DNA of 64,000 nt from an uncultured Bacilli bacterium (GCA_947632085.1 CANRNY010000015.1:1-64000), one strand, 5' to 3'. Counted from the first letter of the stretch, positions 19,012-64,000 are shown. A program made the numbers and translations. Notes: generated from the letters alone by a model not told the origin.

Positions 19012-20115
19012 ATGGCTAAATTTTATTATGCGTCAGTCCAAGATAGAGAATTAGTTAAAAAATCAATTAATAATCTTTTAACTTTGATTTTTGGGAGAAA
19101 TAATCAAGCAAAAATAGAGCAATTTAAGCAAATATTACAAGCTAATATAAAAGAAGTTAATATTCATCCACAAGGAACAAGAACTAGATATTTAAGTGCA
19201 GCAACTCCGGGTTATTGTCTTTTAGATTCACAGGATAATAAGTTTAAAATTGAAATGCTAGGTTATGCTGGAGCAGCAAGTAGTCAATATGGATTTATTA
19301 AACAAGAAGTAGCTCATGAATTTTGTCATAGTATCGCCGGAATATTACCAAGAATTTTTTCTGACTATCCAAATGGAATTATAAAAAATGGTATCTTTTG
19401 TGAAAACTTAATTGGAAAGATAAAAGAAACAAATCTTACTACAGGTGAATTAGTTGGTCTTGGATTATATGGTAAAATGTTTAATGAAACAATGATGGAT
19501 ATAATTACGATGATGGCGATAAATACATTTGATACACCTAATGCACCAACTGTAGATGATATTTTATGTACAAAATATGATTTATGGAATGGAGCTAGTA
19601 CGGGATATTCAATTTTTACATCTATAACAAGATTAGCTATTGCAGCTTTTTCTAATAATGGTGCTGTTAATTATCAAAATATAATTAATCATGGTGAAGG
19701 AATTTTTGAAATTCGTACTAGAATGGATAATGGTGAATTATATAGAACAAATGATTTTTTATATGGTATTTTATTTGATCCGTTACATATTGAAGAAGAA
19801 TTTGATAAATTTATGGGAAATGGAGCTTATAGAGTATTTTGTGAATATTTAGATCAATTATTTGATAGTAGTATACAAGGACAGAAAATACCTAGTGATG
19901 CTGTAAAAGCAATTATGAATGTTTTACCTGATTTCTTAAATAGAAAGATGGCATATTATTTAAAAAATGGAATAATTACGCAAAATGACGCAAATAGAAT
20001 AGTTAGTAATTTCAATCAAATATGGAATCAAATGCAAGGAGAATATAAAGCTTTCTTTAGTAATAATGATATAGCATATATATATAATAGAGCTGGAAGA
20101 TTTTTTATTGGTTAA
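19012..20115 (+). CDS. Putative HExxH zinc metalloprotein, cytosolic
   Basis: 367 residues, family not recognised. The motif HEFCH (residues 103-107, in EVAHEFCHSIAGIL) is a zincin-type HExxH; an Asn-Glu (FNETMMDI, about 161) some 55 residues later could supply a third ligand. No signal peptide or membrane span, so it probably acts inside the cell unless exported by another route. AGGGGGG lies about 12 bases before the ATG, a long spacing. A second HExxH protein without signal peptide is at 59.6 kb, but I see no clear similarity outside the motif. Protease activity is inference from the motif alone. Confidence 0.6.
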   Translation: MAKFYYASVQDRELVKKSINNLLTLIFGRNNQAKIEQFKQILQANIKEVNIHPQGTRTRYLSAATPGYCLLDSQDNKFKIEMLGYAGAASSQYGFIKQEVAHEFCHSIAGILPRIFSDYPNGIIKNGIFCENLIGKIKETNLTTGELVGLGLYGKMFNETMMDIITMMAINTFDTPNAPTVDDILCTKYDLWNGASTGYSIFTSITRLAIAAFSNNGAVNYQNIINHGEGIFEIRTRMDNGELYRTNDFLYGILFDPLHIEEEFDKFMGNGAYRVFCEYLDQLFDSSIQGQKIPSDAVKAIMNVLPDFLNRKMAYYLKNGIITQNDANRIVSNFNQIWNQMQGEYKAFFSNNDIAYIYNRAGRFFIG

Positions 20116-46410: not shown

Positions 46411-49400
46411 ATGGAACAAGAGTATGAAAAAACAATTCTTAATCTAACGGTTGAAGATTTAAGAAAATCACGTAATAACTTACGTTCTTCTTTTGGACGT
46501 AGACGTCGAAATCAAACACAAACTTATGATTATTCAATACCAGAAACTAATAGATCTGTAGTATATGGTATTCCTTTTCTTGAATTTGTTCAAATAGCAA
46601 CAAAATTAAAGAGATATGATTTATTAGCTTCAATAGCTCGTTTAGACGAAAATAACTTAATAGATAAAAGAAATTTAATTGATCATTTAACATTAGTTCC
46701 AAATGGTTATGCAACTGATTATGAAATAATTAGTTATCTACTTAACCAAGGTCGTTTTGATATGGCGCTTCAATGTTACTTAAATGAAGAAGATTGTCAT
46801 AGGTATGCTCTTGAATTTAAAAAAGTTGCTCCTCTAGTTTTAACGAGAATGATAGATGGAAATGTTAAACAAATATTTTACAATGATTTTATTTTTGAAG
46901 AAATGCTTAAAAGTAATAATCTTCAGTTATTAAATAACTTAATTGCCTATGGGATGGAGATTACTCCTGATTTTGAAAGAATTATCTTTGATTATAAAGA
47001 AAAATTATATGAATTTGTTAAAAATAATAAAGCACGTCTTTCTTATATAAGTTATTATCTTTTATTATCACCAACACTTTTTAATTATGTTAAAAGTTTA
47101 AATGATATAGAAACATTATGTAAATTTCATCCATCTTTATTAGGACAAGATTTTATTGATGCAAACGCTTTAGCAATAGTTAAAAGTGATACAGTATTTT
47201 TAAATTATATAAAAAGTAAAAAAGTTGAAGAAGCAATTTTTATAACTAAACGTTATGATTTAATTGAACAATCTTATGAGTATGATCAAGAAGTATTAAG
47301 AAAGTATGCTAAAACGGTTTTCGCAGATACGGAAAAAATGGATTTAAAAAAATATAGTGGTAATAAAAGTTTTTTAATATGCGCTTTGGAAAATGGTTAT
47401 TATGATTATTTAAATGATTTTGATAGATATTTATTTACTGATGATGTATGTGAAAAGTATTACGATATAATAATAAAGTATTGTAAAACTTTTAGTTATA
47501 GTCATAGTTCATATATGTTTTTTAGAATGTTTAAGGAGAATCCATATAATCCTATATTAGCTGATTTTTCAACTGAAGTTTATACAGATGATTTTTTAAA
47601 AGAGAATATTGATAAAATATTAGAAGTAATAGAAAAAAATAATATCTTTAGTAGTTCACATTATCTATTGAATGAATGTTTAAAAAGAAAATGTAGTAAA
47701 GATATTATTTTGAGTTTTCATAAGTCGGCAGTAGATGATGATATTATTAGAGATAATCTTTCCTATATAATGGAAATATTAAGACAATGTAAGGGTAAAT
47801 TTTATAAAATTTTTAATTGTTCAGATGCTTTTTTGACATCTGAAATAGTTTTAAAAAAAGTATTAGAAGAAGGCGATAAATGGCTTTTAAAAAGTTTTTA
47901 TGCTCCGGTTAGTGAAGAATTTGTTAAAGAAAACTTAACCCTTATAATGAATGCGATAACTGATAGATTACCAGGAGCATTTGATAAATCAAAAATCTTA
48001 TTTGATGAATATTTAAAACAAGGAAAATTTAATATTTTATTTAAATTTAATTTATCGTTTTTTACAGAAGAATTTATAAGAGATAATAAAGAAAAAATAA
48101 TGGAAAATATATTTGATTCTTTACCACCTGTTCTTTCTTTGTCACAAGTCTTATTTGATGAATATGTAAAACAGGGTAATTTTTCTATATTATCGCAATT
48201 TTCACCAGCATTTCTTTCTGAAGACTTTGTTAAAGAACATACAAAAGAAATAATGGATAGTATTACAGATCGAATGCCATATTTTTTTAATACTTCCCAA
48301 AGTTTGTTTAATGAATATTTAAAACAAGGTAATTTTAAAATGTTGTTATGGTTTGATTCGTCATTATTTACGGATGAAGTTGTAAGAGATAATTTAGAAA
48401 ATATTATGAATAATATAACAAGCTATCTACCTCTTGAATTTAGCAAGTTAGAAATATTATTTGATGCATATTTAAAACAAGGTAATTTTAAGATATTATT
48501 TCAATTTGATTCATCGTTTTTTACGGAAGAATTTATTAAAGATAATTTAGAAAAGATAAAAAATTATTTAACAACTTCAATACCTTATGTATTAAAAAAA
48601 TCACAAATATTATTTAATGAATATTTAAAAGATAATAATTCTAAGTTGTTATTTGAGTTTGATCCTTCATTTTTTAGTGAAGATTTTATCAAAGCAAATC
48701 TAGAAGCAATAAAAAATAATATTAAAACATTTTTACCTTATGCTTTGAAAGATTCTAAAGTTTTATTTAATGAATATTTAAAGGACAATAATTTCCCAAT
48801 ATTAATACAATTTAATGATACATTTTTCACTGAAGATTTTATTAAAACCAATTTAGAAATAATAAAAAGTAATATCAAAGATTCGTTACCTAAGCCATTT
48901 AAAAAATCACATGTCTTATTTAATGAATATTTAAGACAAAATAACTTTCCTATTTTATTTCAATTTGACGTTTTATTTTTTACCGAAAAATTTATTAGTG
49001 ATCATTTAGAAGAAATAAAGAAAAATATAAGTGATTCTTTACCTTATGGATTAAGTAAATCGAGTTTATTATTTAACGAATATTTAAAACAAGGTAATTT
49101 TAAGATATTATTTCAATTTGATTCTTCATTTTTTACCGAGGAATTTATTAAAGAAAAACTAGAAATAATAAAAAATAATATAGCAGATAAATTACCACGT
49201 GCTTTTTGTAATTCTATAATTTTATTTAATGAGTATTTAAAAGATGATAATTTTCCAATGCTATTACAATTTAATGATTCGTTTTTTACGGAAGATTTTA
49301 TTAAAGAAAATTTAGAGAAAATAAAGAATTATATAACTGATTCATTACCTAGGATTTTTATGAGATCACAAATATTATTCGATGAATATTTAAAGGAAGG

Positions 49401-51726
49401 TAAGTTTAATTTATTATTTCAGTTTTTGAAGATATTTTTTACTGATGAATTTATTACTAATAATTTAGATGATATCTTTAATAGTATTAACGATAAAGTG
49501 CCATATGTTCTTACTTTATCATCTGTATTTTTACAAGTTATAGTAGATAGAAAAAGAACTGATTTATTAACGCAGATGGACGAACAATTATTTACAATGG
49601 AAGTAATTAGAAAAAATTATAATTATTTTTCGACATTATTAAAACAAGATAGTAACGTTATGCTATTCTTTAGTTATCAAGAATTCTTTAAATTAGTAGC
49701 ATTAGAAAATAATGATAAAGAAACAATAGGTTGTATACCATTTGTAGAAAATATATTAAATAAACCTAATATGATAAAAACTTATAGTGAATTACTAGGA
49801 ATTACAGAAAAAGAACTATTAAATAAAATAGGTGATTTATTAAAAATAAATGATGAAGTATTAAATACCTTATGTCCTTTTATGTTGAGTCCGAAGATGA
49901 ATTGTTTATCATTTAAAAATATTGAAAAATTATCAATATATCCAGATATTCAAATTAAACTTAGTAATCTTTCACAAAAAGAATTAATGGTTTTAAATAA
50001 GATATTAAATTATTTAGATAATGATTTAACAGAATCATTTGATATTACAACAATTATCTATTATATAATTAATAATTGGAATTCACATAAGGATTTAATC
50101 ACGACGATTGATGTTAATAATTTAAAGCAAGAAGAGTTAGCTAATTTGATTTTTGTGTTACAAAGAAAAAATGATTTTTACAATATTAAGACCAAAGAAG
50201 ATTTAGAACCAAGTAATTTTGCTAAACTAACAGATAATGTCTTTAGAGAGATTGATGATAAAGTATTAAATGGTCAAATAGATATTGAAGAGTTAAGAAG
50301 AGCAGTTTTAGAAAAGAAATTTAGTATCGATATAGATGTAGCGACATTTATTAGAAAACGTTATTGCTCTTATATGGATGTTATAAATAATAGTAAGACA
50401 CTTAGTAGTCGAACTAAATTATTATTACAGAGTATTGATTATATATTAGCAATTGATAATATTGAGGAACTCTCTTTTGTCTATTTAACTTCAACAAGAT
50501 TACTAGATAATTATTATTCATTTATTGATTTAGAAGCCCAGATAAGGCGTGAATATGCTGAAAGTTATAGTAAATCTTTATATAAAGTTAAAGAAGAACA
50601 TTTGATGAAACAAGCTGATTTTGAAGATCCTAGCTTATATGATGTAGTTAGTGAAGTATCGTATAATAATCAAAAACCACAATTTTATGTTTTAGATGGA
50701 GACTTTAATTTACAAATACATGTATTAGGTGCTTATCGTCTTTGGGATAGACCAAGTAATTTTAAAGAAGACTGGGAAAGACCTAAAATAGCTTATCATG
50801 GAATATGTACTAGTTATATTGGTAATAATCAGATTGCTAATGCTAGACAGAGTCATCCAGCTTACGGATTTAGTGGATATGAAGCTGAAGCTTTAATAAG
50901 TATTCAAAATAGTGATATATTTTCTGATCGTTTAATCAATCAGTTTGCTTCTTCTATTTATCAACCTTGTATGTTTTTACCACCTAAAGAAATGATTGAT
51001 AAGACAAGACATACACATAATGAATTTGTATTAGAAAGACGTAATGGAAAAGGAAGAGATTCATTTAAGAGAATGCCTGATTATGTAGTTTATTTTGTCG
51101 ATGATATTAATAATAGTGAAAACTTTGATATGCAAAAAAATGCTTTATTTAGTGAGACAGTTCAAGCAGCAGTTGATAATGGTATACCAATTGTTATTGT
51201 TGATCGTTTAAAATATGCTAAAAGTGAAAAAAAGAAATATGAAGAATTACTAACAAAGTTTGAAAATGAACCAAAACCAGAAGATTTAGTCGATATATTA
51301 CTAATAATATGTAATAATATGGTTGGTTGTGCGAAGTATGATTCGCAACCAGATATGGAATATCATAAATACTTTAATGAAGGAGTTTTAACAACTGTAT
51401 TAGATAAAATAATTGAAATAATTATAAGACAACCAGAAGAAATTAAGGCTTCATTAATTACTGAACTATATAACTATAGTAATAATGAAGAATTAATAAA
51501 AGATGAAAACAAAACAAAAATATCTAATTTATATGATGGCTTAAATACTTTATATAAAACTACATTAGAAAATAGTAATGTTGTAAAAGAAGTATTAAAG
51601 TATTATAGTATGGCTAGTGAAGAAGTGAAAAAAGCGATTATAACTGATTTAAGAAATGGTTTATCGTATCAAATGGTTCAAGATAAAATTGCTAATAATG
51701 AATATAGAGGAATAGCTAAAATTTAG
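46411..51726 (+). CDS. Giant repeat protein with tandem 51-residue units and a conserved-looking C-terminal domain
   Basis: 1771 residues, not recognised, no signal peptide or membrane span. Residues 1-515: helical region with weaker repeats (TDDFLKENIDKILEVIEK). Residues 516-1025: ten tandem units of exactly 51 residues with consensus LFNEYLKQGNFKILFQF then SFFTEEFIKDNLEKI, about 153 bases each; an eleventh degenerate unit follows. These look like helical-repeat solenoid units. Residues about 1030-1420: helical. Residues about 1430-1620: a distinct domain with WERPKIAYHGICTSYIGNN, YGFSGYEAEALI, RHTHNEFVLERRNGKGRDSF and MPDYVVYFVDD, NGIPIVIVDRLKYAKSE, rich in His, Arg and Glu and perhaps enzymatic. 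GGTGAT precedes the ATG. Overall: a cytosolic solenoid carrying a possible catalytic head. Confidence 0.7.
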   Translation: MEQEYEKTILNLTVEDLRKSRNNLRSSFGRRRRNQTQTYDYSIPETNRSVVYGIPFLEFVQIATKLKRYDLLASIARLDENNLIDKRNLIDHLTLVPNGYATDYEIISYLLNQGRFDMALQCYLNEEDCHRYALEFKKVAPLVLTRMIDGNVKQIFYNDFIFEEMLKSNNLQLLNNLIAYGMEITPDFERIIFDYKEKLYEFVKNNKARLSYISYYLLLSPTLFNYVKSLNDIETLCKFHPSLLGQDFIDANALAIVKSDTVFLNYIKSKKVEEAIFITKRYDLIEQSYEYDQEVLRKYAKTVFADTEKMDLKKYSGNKSFLICALENGYYDYLNDFDRYLFTDDVCEKYYDIIIKYCKTFSYSHSSYMFFRMFKENPYNPILADFSTEVYTDDFLKENIDKILEVIEKNNIFSSSHYLLNECLKRKCSKDIILSFHKSAVDDDIIRDNLSYIMEILRQCKGKFYKIFNCSDAFLTSEIVLKKVLEEGDKWLLKSFYAPVSEEFVKENLTLIMNAITDRLPGAFDKSKILFDEYLKQGKFNILFKFNLSFFTEEFIRDNKEKIMENIFDSLPPVLSLSQVLFDEYVKQGNFSILSQFSPAFLSEDFVKEHTKEIMDSITDRMPYFFNTSQSLFNEYLKQGNFKMLLWFDSSLFTDEVVRDNLENIMNNITSYLPLEFSKLEILFDAYLKQGNFKILFQFDSSFFTEEFIKDNLEKIKNYLTTSIPYVLKKSQILFNEYLKDNNSKLLFEFDPSFFSEDFIKANLEAIKNNIKTFLPYALKDSKVLFNEYLKDNNFPILIQFNDTFFTEDFIKTNLEIIKSNIKDSLPKPFKKSHVLFNEYLRQNNFPILFQFDVLFFTEKFISDHLEEIKKNISDSLPYGLSKSSLLFNEYLKQGNFKILFQFDSSFFTEEFIKEKLEIIKNNIADKLPRAFCNSIILFNEYLKDDNFPMLLQFNDSFFTEDFIKENLEKIKNYITDSLPRIFMRSQILFDEYLKEGKFNLLFQFLKIFFTDEFITNNLDDIFNSINDKVPYVLTLSSVFLQVIVDRKRTDLLTQMDEQLFTMEVIRKNYNYFSTLLKQDSNVMLFFSYQEFFKLVALENNDKETIGCIPFVENILNKPNMIKTYSELLGITEKELLNKIGDLLKINDEVLNTLCPFMLSPKMNCLSFKNIEKLSIYPDIQIKLSNLSQKELMVLNKILNYLDNDLTESFDITTIIYYIINNWNSHKDLITTIDVNNLKQEELANLIFVLQRKNDFYNIKTKEDLEPSNFAKLTDNVFREIDDKVLNGQIDIEELRRAVLEKKFSIDIDVATFIRKRYCSYMDVINNSKTLSSRTKLLLQSIDYILAIDNIEELSFVYLTSTRLLDNYYSFIDLEAQIRREYAESYSKSLYKVKEEHLMKQADFEDPSLYDVVSEVSYNNQKPQFYVLDGDFNLQIHVLGAYRLWDRPSNFKEDWERPKIAYHGICTSYIGNNQIANARQSHPAYGFSGYEAEALISIQNSDIFSDRLINQFASSIYQPCMFLPPKEMIDKTRHTHNEFVLERRNGKGRDSFKRMPDYVVYFVDDINNSENFDMQKNALFSETVQAAVDNGIPIVIVDRLKYAKSEKKKYEELLTKFENEPKPEDLVDILLIICNNMVGCAKYDSQPDMEYHKYFNEGVLTTVLDKIIEIIIRQPEEIKASLITELYNYSNNEELIKDENKTKISNLYDGLNTLYKTTLENSNVVKEVLKYYSMASEEVKKAIITDLRNGLSYQMVQDKIANNEYRGIAKI
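47956..49485 (+). repeat. Ten tandem 153-bp coding repeats
   Basis: In-frame units of 51 codons. Units 4 and 8 share a run of more than 20 identical residues and almost identical DNA over about 70 bases (48472 on and 49081 on), implying recent copying or conversion; others differ more. Confidence 0.85.
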
Positions 51727-59628: not shown

Positions 59629-60492
59629 ATGAATAGTGTGATTAAGGAGCAAGTCCTAAGGGAAAAAAGGTCATTTGATGCCTTAGGATTAAAATACTTT
59701 TCAAGCATTGATACTGAAGTAACTGGGTTTGTATCTTGCCAGTTAATGGGAATTAAAACAAAGGCTAATGTAGCTAGGAGAACAATTAGTTTTCAACAAG
59801 CAATAAGTACAAGTGCTAAAGATATTACAATATTTGGTGATGAATATTTAAATAGAATACTAGAAGTTTTCAATCATGCAAAATATATGGTAGCTTATCC
59901 TGGTAATTTATCATTTGCTTGTAATGTAACTTTTATGGTTGATCCTGAGACAAAAAAAGTACAAACTAATTCAGGAAAAGTTGAACACTATAAACTACCA
60001 CAACAAATAACTGAACTTGCACCAATGTTTTTAGGACATGAACATTTACATGCTTTAAAAGAAACTAATTACCAAGAATATGTTAACTCACAAAGATTAG
60101 CTGATGTTATTCCATTATTTTATGAATTAGTAATGGCTAATGGAAAATATCAAGATATATATGATATATGGCTTAATTCAAGAATGTATTTACTTTGTGA
60201 TTTACAAAATCAATATAATATAGCGAGAAAATTAATGAAAAATAATGGTAGCGAGAGAGATATGTATAAAATTATTGCCGTAAAAAATGGTGAATACCTA
60301 AATAGTTTCTACTATGCATTAATTCTATATAATATGTATTTAAATGATAAAAAACTAATTATAAGTTTAATTAAAAAAGTATTAAATCATGAAATGACAA
60401 CAATACAGTTATTAAATACTTTAGGAATATATGGAATAGATAGTCATCAAATATTTGAAGATGAATTAAATAAGTTAAAAAAGAATTTATAA
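59629..60492 (+). CDS. Putative HExxH zinc metalloprotein, cytosolic
   Basis: 287 residues, not recognised. HEHLH (residues 138-142, in MFLGHEHLHALKET) is a zincin-type motif, with candidate Glu ligands downstream (TNYQEYVNSQRLADV and PLFYELVMA). No signal peptide or membrane span. AAGGGGG lies 7 bases before the ATG. It lies directly before the giant sigma factor gene, with a terminator and a new promoter between them. Confidence 0.6.
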   Translation: MNSVIKEQVLREKRSFDALGLKYFSSIDTEVTGFVSCQLMGIKTKANVARRTISFQQAISTSAKDITIFGDEYLNRILEVFNHAKYMVAYPGNLSFACNVTFMVDPETKKVQTNSGKVEHYKLPQQITELAPMFLGHEHLHALKETNYQEYVNSQRLADVIPLFYELVMANGKYQDIYDIWLNSRMYLLCDLQNQYNIARKLMKNNGSERDMYKIIAVKNGEYLNSFYYALILYNMYLNDKKLIISLIKKVLNHEMTTIQLLNTLGIYGIDSHQIFEDELNKLKKNL

Positions 60493-60512: not shown

Positions 60513-60525
60513 TCTTTTGTATAAT
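60497..60525 (+). promoter_or_regulatory. Promoter of the giant sigma factor gene
   Basis: -35 TTGTAA (60497-60502), 17 bases, -10 TATAAT (60520-60525); AGGTG ribosome binding site at 60533. Confidence 0.7.
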
Positions 60526-60543
60526 AAAAAACAGGTGTTTGTT

Positions 60544-63500
60544 ATGGATGAAGAAATAGAAATATTAACAGACGAGGAATTAGTAGATACATTTAGTGAT
60601 AACGCCTTTAAACAATATATGAGAGATATATCTAAATATCCTTTATTAAATATAGAAGAACAAAAAAGATTAACTTATGAATATCAAAAAGGAGATATGA
60701 AAGCTAGAGAACTACTAATTAATAGTAATTTAAGATTAGTTGTTAGTGTTGCTAATCATTATCGTAGTGTAATTACTAATATGAATATCTTAGATATTAT
60801 TCAAGAAGGTAATTTAGGTCTAATGAAAGCAATAGATAATTATGATCCGGAAATAAGTGCTTTTTCAACATATGCAGTTTATTGGATAAGACAAGCTATT
60901 ACAAGAGCTATTGCTAATAAAGATGCCGTGATTAGAAAACCAGTTCATATTACTTATTCAGCAACTAAATATAAAAAATTATTAGAAAAATATAAAAGCG
61001 AAGGTAAAACACCTAGTGATAAAGAAATATGTGAAACACTTAATATAACCCAAGGGACTTTAGATTCGATAAGAGATAGTATAAAACAAGTTCCTGTAAG
61101 TATTAATCAAAAAGTAGATGATGATAGTGATACAGAATTAGAAAACTTTATTGTTAGTGAAAATAATGATTATGAAGATGTCTTAAATAATATTGTTAAT
61201 GATACTTTATTAATTACTTTAAAAGAAATATTACCACCAGTACATTATTTTATCCTATATTATAGAGTGTTAAATGGAGAGACATTAACACTAGAAGAAG
61301 TAGCTTCATACTTTAACTTAACAAGAGAAAGAATAAGACAGATAGAAAGTAAAGTATTAAAAAAATTAAAACCTTATATGCAACATAATAGTAAGAAAAT
61401 TGCTACTACTTATAGAAATATCGTAAAAGTAGAAGGAGCTAACGTCCATAGAATAAAAAAAGAACCAATAAATCCAAATAAAATAATGCAATACTTATAT
61501 ATTAGAGATGAACTTGAATACTTAGAAGAAAGAATATTTTACTATGAAGTATTTAGTAAATACTATTTTACTTTAAATGATTTAGCGAATGAATTAGGGG
61601 TTACAGTAAAAGAAATACAATTAGCAAGAGATATAGTTAAATTAAAATTAAAAAGAAAAATGAGTGATATAGAAAAATATCGTGAATTTAGAGAAGAAAC
61701 AATAAAGACATATGGAACTAAAATATTTAATATCGATTTAACAACTAAAGTTAAAAAAATTAACTATCGGGAATTAAGTAATAAATATAGTAATTTAAGT
61801 TTAGAAGAAATATTAAATTTATTTAAAAAGATAAAATATGAACTTACGAATGATGAAATAAAACTTTTAACAAGATACTTTGGTTTAAAAGAAAGAAATG
61901 GAATTAAAGAAGAAGAGTTAGTAATAGATATTAATACGACATTATTTGGGTTTAAACATCAAGATATGCATGTACCAAAAAATAAATTATATGAAGAATA
62001 CTTAAAAATAAAATATGAATTTGATGAAGAACAACAACTATTCTTAGAAACATATTACTTTGGTAAAAAAGATAGAAAAGTATTTCAAGATAAATATCCG
62101 GAATCATCTTTATATTATCGTCATTACTTCTTAATAGATCGATTAGAAAGAAGTTATTATCATATACTAAGATTCTTTGAAAATACATTTACTAAAGAAA
62201 TGTACTTAGAAGTTAAAAAGAAATATGCTTATAAATTTACAGATTTAAAAATAAAGATTCTAGATATGTATTATGGAGTAGATGGAAGAATATATAGTTT
62301 AAAAGAAATAGCTTCGATAATAGGATTAGATTATATAAAAACACATGATTTATGTCGTGATGCAAGAAATTATGCGATAAAACTATATAGTGGGTTAGAT
62401 ACATATCGTTTAGATATTGATCCAGATATATATCGTAAATATATAATAGATCCTAAATACTATTTTATTCCTTTAACTAGAGATATATTAGATATGTATA
62501 TACTACAAAAATTATCATATGATGAAATAAGTAATAAAACTAAACTTTCTAAAACAAGAATATCTAATATAATTACTGAAGCTAAAAGAAAGATGGATAA
62601 TTATCGCTTTGGATTAGTAGAAGTAATAGATATAGATGAAAATAAAATAAATGAATTTTTAAAATATTATAAAGATAAGATTAGTCAAGATGAATTAATA
62701 GTAATTAGATATAGATATTTAAAATATATGATGCCTGAAGAAATTAGTAGTACATTAAAGATAGATATAAATATTGTAAAAAGAGCTTTAACGCATTTTA
62801 ACTATTTATATACTAGTTACTTAATTAAAGATGTTGAAGTAACTAATGAAGATATTATAAAAGAAATAAATAAACATGTAAGTGAATCAATTTTAAGTTA
62901 TCAAGAGAAACAATTTGCTAGTTATTACTTAGGAATAAAAAATGAATACAATATTGAAGGTCATAGTTTAAAATTTACTGAGTTAATGGCTAAAATGGAA
63001 TTAACTAATCATAAATATTGGCACAAATATATGGGAATTGTAAGAAAGATAAAGTGTTTAAAAAAAGGAATTATAAAACCGGATTTACTTTTTATTAGTC
63101 GCGAAGAACTTAATAAGTTACTTGATGATTGTCATTTACCAATAAGTGATAAAGAAAAAGAAATAATATGTTACTTATTTGAACTTAAAGGATACCCATA
63201 TAAGGAATTAGATGAAATAGCTAAAATATATAATGATACTAGTGGTAGTATTAGAAGAAGATATCAAAGAGCAATAGTTAGTATATATAAATATTTAAAT
63301 GGGGAATTAGAAGGTCAGATAGATTATGAATTAGATATAATACCTTTACTTAGATACTTTAGTATAAGTGATCGTTATAAACTAGAAGATTTCTATAAAA
63401 ATGGTTTATCGTATGAACAAATGGCTAAAAAATATGGAGCTACATTTAGTCAAATAGTTGATATTATGAATAGAATAAAAGTTAATGTATATGAACTATT

Positions 63501-64000
63501 AAATAACTTAGATAAAACTAAAGTCTTTGACTTTGATTACTATCAAGAAGCTATTAAAAATCCTGATTTACCATTTTATGGTGATTTAGATATGGCTGTT
63601 AAAATATTTAATTTAGTATTTGGAATGAATGGCGAAGAAAGAAAAAGTGTGCCAACTATAATAGAAGAATTACATCTTGATTTAAAGACAACAACAGTTA
63701 ATAGAGTGGTATGGGAGTTAATGCTTAGTGTTTGTAAATTAAAAGATGGAGTTACTAAAGAACAAACATTCTCTTTAGAAGAAGTATATTCATACTATTT
63801 GAAAAAACATAAAGAAATGCCATACTACCATAAAGTATACTATTTAAGATACTTTAAAAGAATAACAGATAATCGTAATATAAATGGAACAAAAGAAAAA
63901 CTATCTTACTACATAATAAATGATTTAATCGAAGATATATATCCTGATGCTTTTTCATTTAAAAAAGCGACAAGAGAAGAAGTAATAGCAATATTAAAAA
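60544..64000 (+). CDS. Giant sigma-70 family factor with C-terminal array of region-4-like units (incomplete, open at right edge)
   Basis: At least 1152 codons without a stop, running off the window. Residues 1-280 are a sigma-70 factor close to the primary/RpoD group: region 1.2 FKQYMRDISKYPLLNIEEQ (about 22-40), region 2.1 NSNLRLVVSVANHY, DIIQEGNLGLMKAIDNYD, region 2.3-2.4 AFSTYAVYWIRQAITRAI (about 106-123), region 3 (about 125-205), region 4.2 with LTLEEVASYFNLTRERIRQI (about 249-268) and ESKVLKKLKPYM. There is no region 1.1. From about 320 on, degenerate helix-turn-helix units recur: FTLNDLANELGVTVKEIQLA, YSLKEIASIIGLDYIKTHDL (about 579-598), LSYDEISNKTKLSKTRISNI (about 655), MPEEISSTLKIDINIVKRAL (about 729), PYKELDEIAKIYNDTSGSIR (about 885), LSYEQMAKKYGATFSQIVDI (about 957). 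Each follows a Leu/Tyr-rich helix. The base composition and codons match the neighbours. Confidence 0.85.
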   Translation, partial: MDEEIEILTDEELVDTFSDNAFKQYMRDISKYPLLNIEEQKRLTYEYQKGDMKARELLINSNLRLVVSVANHYRSVITNMNILDIIQEGNLGLMKAIDNYDPEISAFSTYAVYWIRQAITRAIANKDAVIRKPVHITYSATKYKKLLEKYKSEGKTPSDKEICETLNITQGTLDSIRDSIKQVPVSINQKVDDDSDTELENFIVSENNDYEDVLNNIVNDTLLITLKEILPPVHYFILYYRVLNGETLTLEEVASYFNLTRERIRQIESKVLKKLKPYMQHNSKKIATTYRNIVKVEGANVHRIKKEPINPNKIMQYLYIRDELEYLEERIFYYEVFSKYYFTLNDLANELGVTVKEIQLARDIVKLKLKRKMSDIEKYREFREETIKTYGTKIFNIDLTTKVKKINYRELSNKYSNLSLEEILNLFKKIKYELTNDEIKLLTRYFGLKERNGIKEEELVIDINTTLFGFKHQDMHVPKNKLYEEYLKIKYEFDEEQQLFLETYYFGKKDRKVFQDKYPESSLYYRHYFLIDRLERSYYHILRFFENTFTKEMYLEVKKKYAYKFTDLKIKILDMYYGVDGRIYSLKEIASIIGLDYIKTHDLCRDARNYAIKLYSGLDTYRLDIDPDIYRKYIIDPKYYFIPLTRDILDMYILQKLSYDEISNKTKLSKTRISNIITEAKRKMDNYRFGLVEVIDIDENKINEFLKYYKDKISQDELIVIRYRYLKYMMPEEISSTLKIDINIVKRALTHFNYLYTSYLIKDVEVTNEDIIKEINKHVSESILSYQEKQFASYYLGIKNEYNIEGHSLKFTELMAKMELTNHKYWHKYMGIVRKIKCLKKGIIKPDLLFISREELNKLLDDCHLPISDKEKEIICYLFELKGYPYKELDEIAKIYNDTSGSIRRRYQRAIVSIYKYLNGELEGQIDYELDIIPLLRYFSISDRYKLEDFYKNGLSYEQMAKKYGATFSQIVDIMNRIKVNVYELLNNLDKTKVFDFDYYQEAIKNPDLPFYGDLDMAVKIFNLVFGMNGEERKSVPTIIEELHLDLKTTTVNRVVWELMLSVCKLKDGVTKEQTFSLEEVYSYYLKKHKEMPYYHKVYYLRYFKRITDNRNINGTKEKLSYYIINDLIEDIYPDAFSFKKATREEVIAILK

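Follow-up and report, generated by a model that had tools for sequence, protein, structure and literature searches.

Region 4 (σ4) is the domain by which a sigma factor binds -35 DNA and the β-flap, and anti-sigma factors, WhiB proteins and phage proteins commonly dock on it. To our knowledge, described sigma factors carry one region 4 per polypeptide, and a literature search (with most subscription journals outside its reach) found no description of a poly-σ4 protein. RpoD/SigA and RpoS contain regions 1.2, 2, 3 and 4 in the same order as the giant sigma factor reported here, which differs from RpoD-like sigmas in the lack of region 1.1, in scores far under every equivalog cutoff and in ~920 residues following region 4. 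An extra C-terminal module is also found in the sigma factor ECF56 SigG1, which ends in a SnoaL_2 domain (PMC7730460); its extension, however, is one unrelated domain, whereas that of the giant consists of many σ4 copies and region 3 is present in addition. MzaA of the MZA anti-phage system (NF041931) is likewise a long protein with a σ70 core, but its long part precedes the core, while the tail of the giant trails it. KorA-type repressors and UPF0122/YlxM possess a single σ4-like helix-turn-helix (HTH) and are the best structural matches of two tail units (U6 and U5, respectively); unlike the giant, they are single-domain proteins without σ core and without array.

The gene was found in a 64,000-nucleotide stretch of DNA from an uncultured Bacilli bacterium (the window), where it starts with the ATG at position 60544 on the plus strand and runs beyond the window edge, residues 1-1152 being encoded within the window (60544..64000). 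A frame open for 1152 codons had been claimed in an earlier note on this DNA, and from this ATG onwards it is indeed open; the full gene, whose retrieval that note had advised, was recovered from the source contig (C15; 64,611 bp), in which the stop codon lies at C15:64176, resulting in a protein of 1210 aa. This is about four times the usual size of a sigma factor, because the last DNA-reading domain is trailed by approximately eight diverged copies of its own. The extension of at least 870 residues after region 4, also claimed earlier, is real, yet the figure is only a lower limit, since the window edge cuts the coding sequence, and the tail amounts to ~920 residues. Upstream, a TATAAT -10-like element (60520..60525, plus strand) is located 18 nt 5' of the ATG and a ribosome-binding site AGGTG at 60533..60537 (plus strand); a TATAAT-like element (both assigned by eye) and a similar ribosome-binding site precede most of the homologs as well. 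Downstream, a terminator-like hairpin is followed by the gene of an FAD-dependent protein.

Residues 23-276 form a σ70 core, whose regions 1.2, 2, 3 and 4 score at or above the Pfam gathering thresholds: region 1.2 (residues 23-51; 60610..60696; Sigma70_r1_2, 22.3 bits, cutoff 22), region 2 for core binding and -10 recognition (residues 58-127; 60715..60924; Sigma70_r2, 61.3 and 65.2 bits in two scans), region 3 (residues 143-208; 60970..61167; Sigma70_r3, 27.7 bits, cutoff 25.3) and the canonical region 4, here U0 (residues 237-276; 61252..61371; Sigma70_r4), all on the plus strand. Region 1.1 is absent. The hallmarks of the σ70 family, namely the region 2 motifs and a region 4 HTH with its -35 recognition helix, are present; the core-binding motif LDIIQEGNLGLMKA, the -10 motif FSTYAVYWIRQAITRAI and the -35 motif TRERIRQIE are intact and, on comparison, all three resemble those of the genome's own RpoD. 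Pfam thus agrees with the earlier statement that a complete σ70 with intact motifs occupies the first 280 residues. An assignment as ECF sigma was rejected, as region 3 is present above cutoff. The best NCBIfam matches cover residues 16-283, and the RpoD equivalog scores were not reached (PRK09210, 189 versus 572 bits; RpoD_Cterm, 179 versus 354). A search for another RpoD revealed a normal, separate one on contig C29 (98% identical between genomes G000 and G003); the giant is therefore not the RpoD of this genome but an extra sigma factor, which can accordingly be specialised.

The ~920 residues behind the core contain at least seven, probably eight, σ4-like HTH units, of which U1 and U4-U9 are firm and U10 is probable. 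Sigma70_r4 matches residues 296-1152 taken alone (53.5 bits, E 1.7e-14, cutoff 24.1) as well as the tails of all 28 homologous proteins (28/28 aligned relatives), and the isolated segments 630-700 and 852-925 each exceed its cutoff singly. An external σ4 HMM, built solely from sigma factors other than the giants, gave 64 matches at iE<0.1 in 25,646 aa of tails, but none when shuffled tails (256,460 aa) or other frames of the window (17,180 aa) were searched; given these matches and those of Sigma70_r4, we rejected an ordinary sigma factor with an unrelated C-terminal domain. At iE<1 the external matches fall on the same units across members (U4 in 18, U5 in 18, U7 in 15, U6 in 13, U8 in 11, U9 in 9, U1 in 6 and U10 in 6). 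Profile-profile alignment (hhalign) of 70-column windows with the giant's own region 4, the values being those of single comparisons rather than database E-values, yielded 97.5% for 321-390, 85% for 561-630, 93% for 621-690, 90% for 701-770, 86% for 801-870, 89% for 861-930 and 92% for 921-990, whereas the control windows gave <1% (region 2), 27% (region 3) and no more than 6% (columns permuted). The windowed check of the tail suggested in the earlier note thus returned region-4 matches reaching 85-97%, contrary to the refuting outcome named there (no match beyond residue 300).

Along the plus strand, the array begins with U1 (residues 326-372; 61519..61659; hhalign 97.5%, HTH in the model), which is followed by a helical stretch without demonstrable σ4 match (residues 373-566; 61660..62241; hhalign mostly ≤15%). 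A weak external-HMM match occurs here in two members, and one or two strongly degenerate units may be hidden in the stretch. Next come U4 (residues 567-615; 62242..62388; hhalign 85%, external HMM in 18 members), U5 (residues 643-688; 62470..62607; Sigma70_r4 24.7 bits, above cutoff; hhalign 93%; low divergence in helix 3), U6 (residues 715-760; 62686..62823; hhalign 90%), U7 (residues 786-841; 62899..63066; hhalign 86%, external HMM in 15 members), U8 (residues 869-918; 63148..63297; Sigma70_r4 25.3 bits, above cutoff) and U9 (residues 941-987; 63364..63504; hhalign 92%, HTH in the model). The probable U10 (residues 1015-1067; 63586..63744) shows an HTH-like trio in the model, an hhalign value of ~10% and external-HMM matches in 6 members, and the C-terminal ~130 residues (1080-1210) are, like 400-555, either helical or not covered by the model, with no demonstrable σ4 likeness. 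The earlier description of the tail as diversified region-4 copies hence stands for U1, U4-U9 and probably U10, but is not demonstrable for residues 373-566 and the last ~130 residues.

AlphaFold2 models of residues 1-1152 (pLDDT 82.5, pTM 0.54) and of the tail alone (pLDDT 88.3, pTM 0.67) show a recurring helix trio with an HTH turn at each σ4-like unit; at this pTM the predicted overall shape of the tail is uncertain. With VIA-align, U4 was superposed on region 4 of Thermus aquaticus σA (1ku3; Z 8.6, 1.6 Å over 60 residues), U5 on that of σE (2h27; Z 7.8), U6 on KorA (2w7n; Z 10.1) and on SigF region 4 (8jzt; Z 8.8), and U8 on σS region 4 (6ido; Z 7.6); Z values of this size are middling on their own for helical models and were weighed jointly with the sequence evidence. 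Foldseek matched only the σ core when the whole protein was used and returned nothing below 1e-3 in the PDB for the whole tail, and when PDB sequences were searched with a tail profile, only marginal matches resulted, HTH and sigma proteins being on top. The architecture, a fusion of an RpoD-like σ1.2-σ2-σ3-σ4 with a long, helical array of HTH units derived from σ4, is almost certainly correct, and the earlier interpretation is supported in this respect by sequence profiles and predicted structure, by recurrence of the design in ~30 homologs and by the separate RpoD.

As to function, our best explanation taken as a whole, which we regard as having about an even chance of being right, is an accessory alternative σ70-family factor with a contact-making array. 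Regions 2 to 4 would bind the RNA polymerase (RNAP) core and a -10/-35 promoter as ordinary sigmas do; from the C-terminus of σ4, where the upstream DNA lies, the array would depart and would dock as a stiff solenoid on this DNA and/or on RNAP surfaces, thereby conferring selectivity for a fast-changing, lineage-specific target set. Contact of the array with DNA or RNAP, considered by itself, falls slightly short of even likelihood. The structural matches of the units to σ4 domains and to the σ4-like repressor KorA speak for the explanation, as do the complete σ moiety, the colinear conservation, the joint inheritance under purifying selection, the separate RpoD and the matches of nine members to phrog_323. 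Against it count the copies without σ region 2, the uncertain overall shape of the tail and the ordinary housekeeping appearance of the giant's own and the neighbouring promoters, at which inspection by eye for a distinctive promoter revealed only elements of the TATAAT/extended -10 type.

The recognition helices differ among the units. Their divergence is 0.21 in U5, 0.30 in U8, 0.30 in the canonical region 4 and 0.33-0.56 in the others, and in U1, U6, U7, U9 and U10 the recognition-helix positions are no less variable than the remainder of the unit, which also counts against the explanation above. The helix of U8 is conserved and the most basic one (3.3 K/R per 11 aa); the tail as a whole, in contrast, has only a slight positive net charge in the majority of members and a negative one in several others, another point against. 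A conserved DNA-reading role for each of the units is not supported, as clear conservation is restricted to U5 and U8. For the same reason, and given the strongly basic U8, we favour a few contact modules on a spacer solenoid, in which U5 and U8 would be the main contacts and the remaining units mostly spacers. The functions proposed in the earlier note, i.e. spanning long upstream DNA, bridging promoters or acting as an RNAP scaffold, are weakened for most units because recognition helices outside U5 and U8 are unconserved, and are weakened further by the existence of tail-bearing paralogs without σ region 2; the earlier interpretation as a whole, architecture included, is partly supported.

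According to the main rival, the tail would serve the protein as an internal module for interaction or regulation: its arrayed decoy σ4 units could bind the kinds of partner that dock on σ4, or fold back and mask the σ moiety, and the tail would thus control the factor without reading DNA. The lack of conservation in most recognition helices fits this possibility, as does the linker between regions 3 and 4 (residues 182-215), which is modelled with low confidence and would permit rearrangement, and several of the best structural matches (8jzt, 3vep, 4g6d, 7kuf) were solved together with protein partners. The conserved, basic helix of U8, however, is at odds with it, and no anti-sigma or partner gene was found to be conserved beside the giant gene across genera, so that we consider such a tail rather unlikely. 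Second among the rivals is σ-independent DNA binding, in which the array would be a polymerase-independent DNA-binding or architectural protein and the σ fusion ancestral and dispensable. Tail-only paralogs lacking σ region 2 are present in G007 (L029, L031; in tandem gene clusters) and at L045:6507-9431 (plus strand), which implies that the array may function independently of σ, and in the G001 copy the σ part is decayed; G205 and G096 encode array proteins of 1548 and 944 aa, respectively, that are devoid of a σ domain. Most members nevertheless retain a complete σ moiety with largely intact -10/-35 motifs, and the similar dN/dS of σ part and tail also speaks against dispensability, which makes this second rival distinctly improbable.

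The fusion and its array have been passed on jointly, with purifying selection acting on them. Trees of the σ moiety and of the tail have 9 of 17 splits in common, whereas random trees share three at most, from which it follows that both parts travel together. The dN/dS of the giant was 0.34 and 0.42 in two genome pairs, that is, about ten times the value of RpoD (0.026-0.044); obgE reached 0.083-0.085, the FAD gene 0.04-0.10, most other sigmas 0.05-0.09 and one sigma of 196 aa 0.22. Slowest among the parts tested were residues 856-1075, including U8-U10 (0.18-0.30). The giant is therefore constrained, yet its rate of evolution is several-fold higher than that of conserved neighbouring genes and of ordinary sigmas, which suggests changing targets or partners. 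Homolog lengths cluster at 1180-1260 aa, with L053 (1505) and G001 (1115) as outliers.

Colinear arrays were observed in ~30 proteins, all of them within one family of uncultured gut Bacilli, which we take to belong to the order RF39. The named loci come from metagenome-assembled genomes (MAGs) labelled Bacilli, Tenericutes or Firmicutes, including Candidatus Coprovivens excrementavium, and the isolate names point mostly to animal guts. In a first sample of 59 related genomes, relatives of residues 301-1210 (33-65% identity) were present in 7 other genomes of the same genus and in 0 of 44 outside it; profile searches extended the matches, some of them covering the profile only in part, to roughly twelve more genera of this family (17/243 and 15/288 genomes), while a class-wide sample of 346 contained only two matching genomes, both of the same family. 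Within the genus, the usual order is obgE, a fast-evolving gene of ~287 aa, the giant sigma and the FAD gene, and in G001, G002, G003, G005 and G013 the giant lies next to the FAD-dependent gene and, if the contig extends far enough, obgE; in other genera the genomic context is different. An assembly fusion or frameshift artefact was rejected, because five genomes of the genus share the locus and other genera carry the same design elsewhere, as the search of related genomes advocated in the earlier note has shown.

Such a patchy presence (8/59 relatives, 15/288 in the order sample) would also be expected of a fast-decaying gene of genomic conflict, be it counter-defence, defence or a selfish regulator, that is frequently lost, split and duplicated, with the array as an expansion of little selected function. 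The split copy in G123, the tandem duplicates in G007 and G013 (tandem or near-tandem copies are seen in L039 as well) and the ten-fold dN/dS relative to RpoD agree with this third rival. The dN/dS well below 1 throughout, the colinear array and the near-constant length oppose it, and no copies of the giant were found in viral contigs, phages or plasmids; we regard it as very unlikely. PADLOC returned no more than two matches, one to MzaA on the σ core (1.3e-33) and a weak one to mad1 over residues 338-386 (1.8e-6), and the MzaA model, matching within the σ core only, reached 185.5 bits at a cutoff of 800, for which reasons membership in a defence system was rejected. A phage or plasmid gene was rejected too, the tail being unmatched in phage, viral-contig and plasmid searches, and neither tblastn nor viral contigs revealed a phage protein of the giant's architecture. 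Phage regulator and sigma-factor families (phrog_323, phrog_1740 and phrog_351, the latter two being sigma factors) are matched by 9-13 of 28 members; for phrog_323 ('D5-like' phage regulators), matched by 9/28, tail residues 865-1114 align over 213 of 319 positions (E 2.8e-8), which may reflect shared HTH units alone.

Further σ4-array proteins are encoded in the same family. A 781-aa sigma of G265 (L136:1433-3778, plus strand) carries four extra region-4 copies, whose near identity suggests recent duplication, and two or three extra region-4 matches were found in sigmas of G230 (L130:1763-3718, plus strand; 651 aa) and G236 (L131:1604-3145, plus strand; 513 aa). In G234 (L129:1869-3788, minus strand; 639 aa) a sigma is followed by four ~80-aa repeats whose match to region 4 is limited to its first part; this repeat (IYEYFS.YSKEEID..LSKL...DKELIKLRYGEDLEHP), of which the first half alone resembles region 4, also trails the sigma domain in G287 (L134:1476-2795, plus strand). 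The sigma-free proteins of G205 (L127:1063-5709, plus strand) and G096 (L128:1280-4114, minus strand) consist of the ~80-aa repeat and have a weaker σ4 link. In a σ-domain tree, in which several deep nodes are weakly supported, the giant clusters with its own RpoD and not with sporulation-type sigmas; the giants as a group fall with RpoD, the σ domains of the other-genus array proteins with sporulation-type sigmas, and arrays therefore probably arose at least twice. A speculative and rather unlikely extension is that poly-σ4 factors constitute a new class of transcription initiators, in which arrayed σ4 units would read or grip long upstream DNA and provide their own activator and enhancer-binding function, having evolved at least twice, from RpoD-like and sporulation-like sigmas. 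The multiplication of region 4, which reaches about nine-fold after a complete σ and is kept across wide divergence, is a natural test case for the number of DNA- or activator-contacting domains that RNA polymerase is able to use. The array could also be a ready-made modular repeat that binds DNA or RNAP.

Several other genes were observed in the window and at related loci. The gene immediately 5' of the giant (59629-60492, plus strand) encodes a protein of 287 aa without Pfam match; it stays beside the giant in several genomes of the genus (dN/dS 0.32-0.55) and carries an HExxH-like motif (HEHLH), making it a possible metalloprotease. A protein of 367 aa with the HExxH-like motif HEFCH (19012-20115, plus strand) is a possible second metalloprotease-like protein. 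Many ~47-residue repeats (LFNEYLK..NF.ILFQFD.SFFTEEFIK.NLE.IKNNI...LP) are present in a protein of 1771 aa encoded at 46411-51726 (plus strand). Downstream of the FAD gene, genes at L032:11324-15566 (plus strand), and likewise in L037, L038 and L048, encode an Flg_new (Listeria-Bacteroides repeat) protein and a large secreted-looking protein; the promoters of the Flg_new genes share a TTTAC...TGnTATAAT-like pattern.
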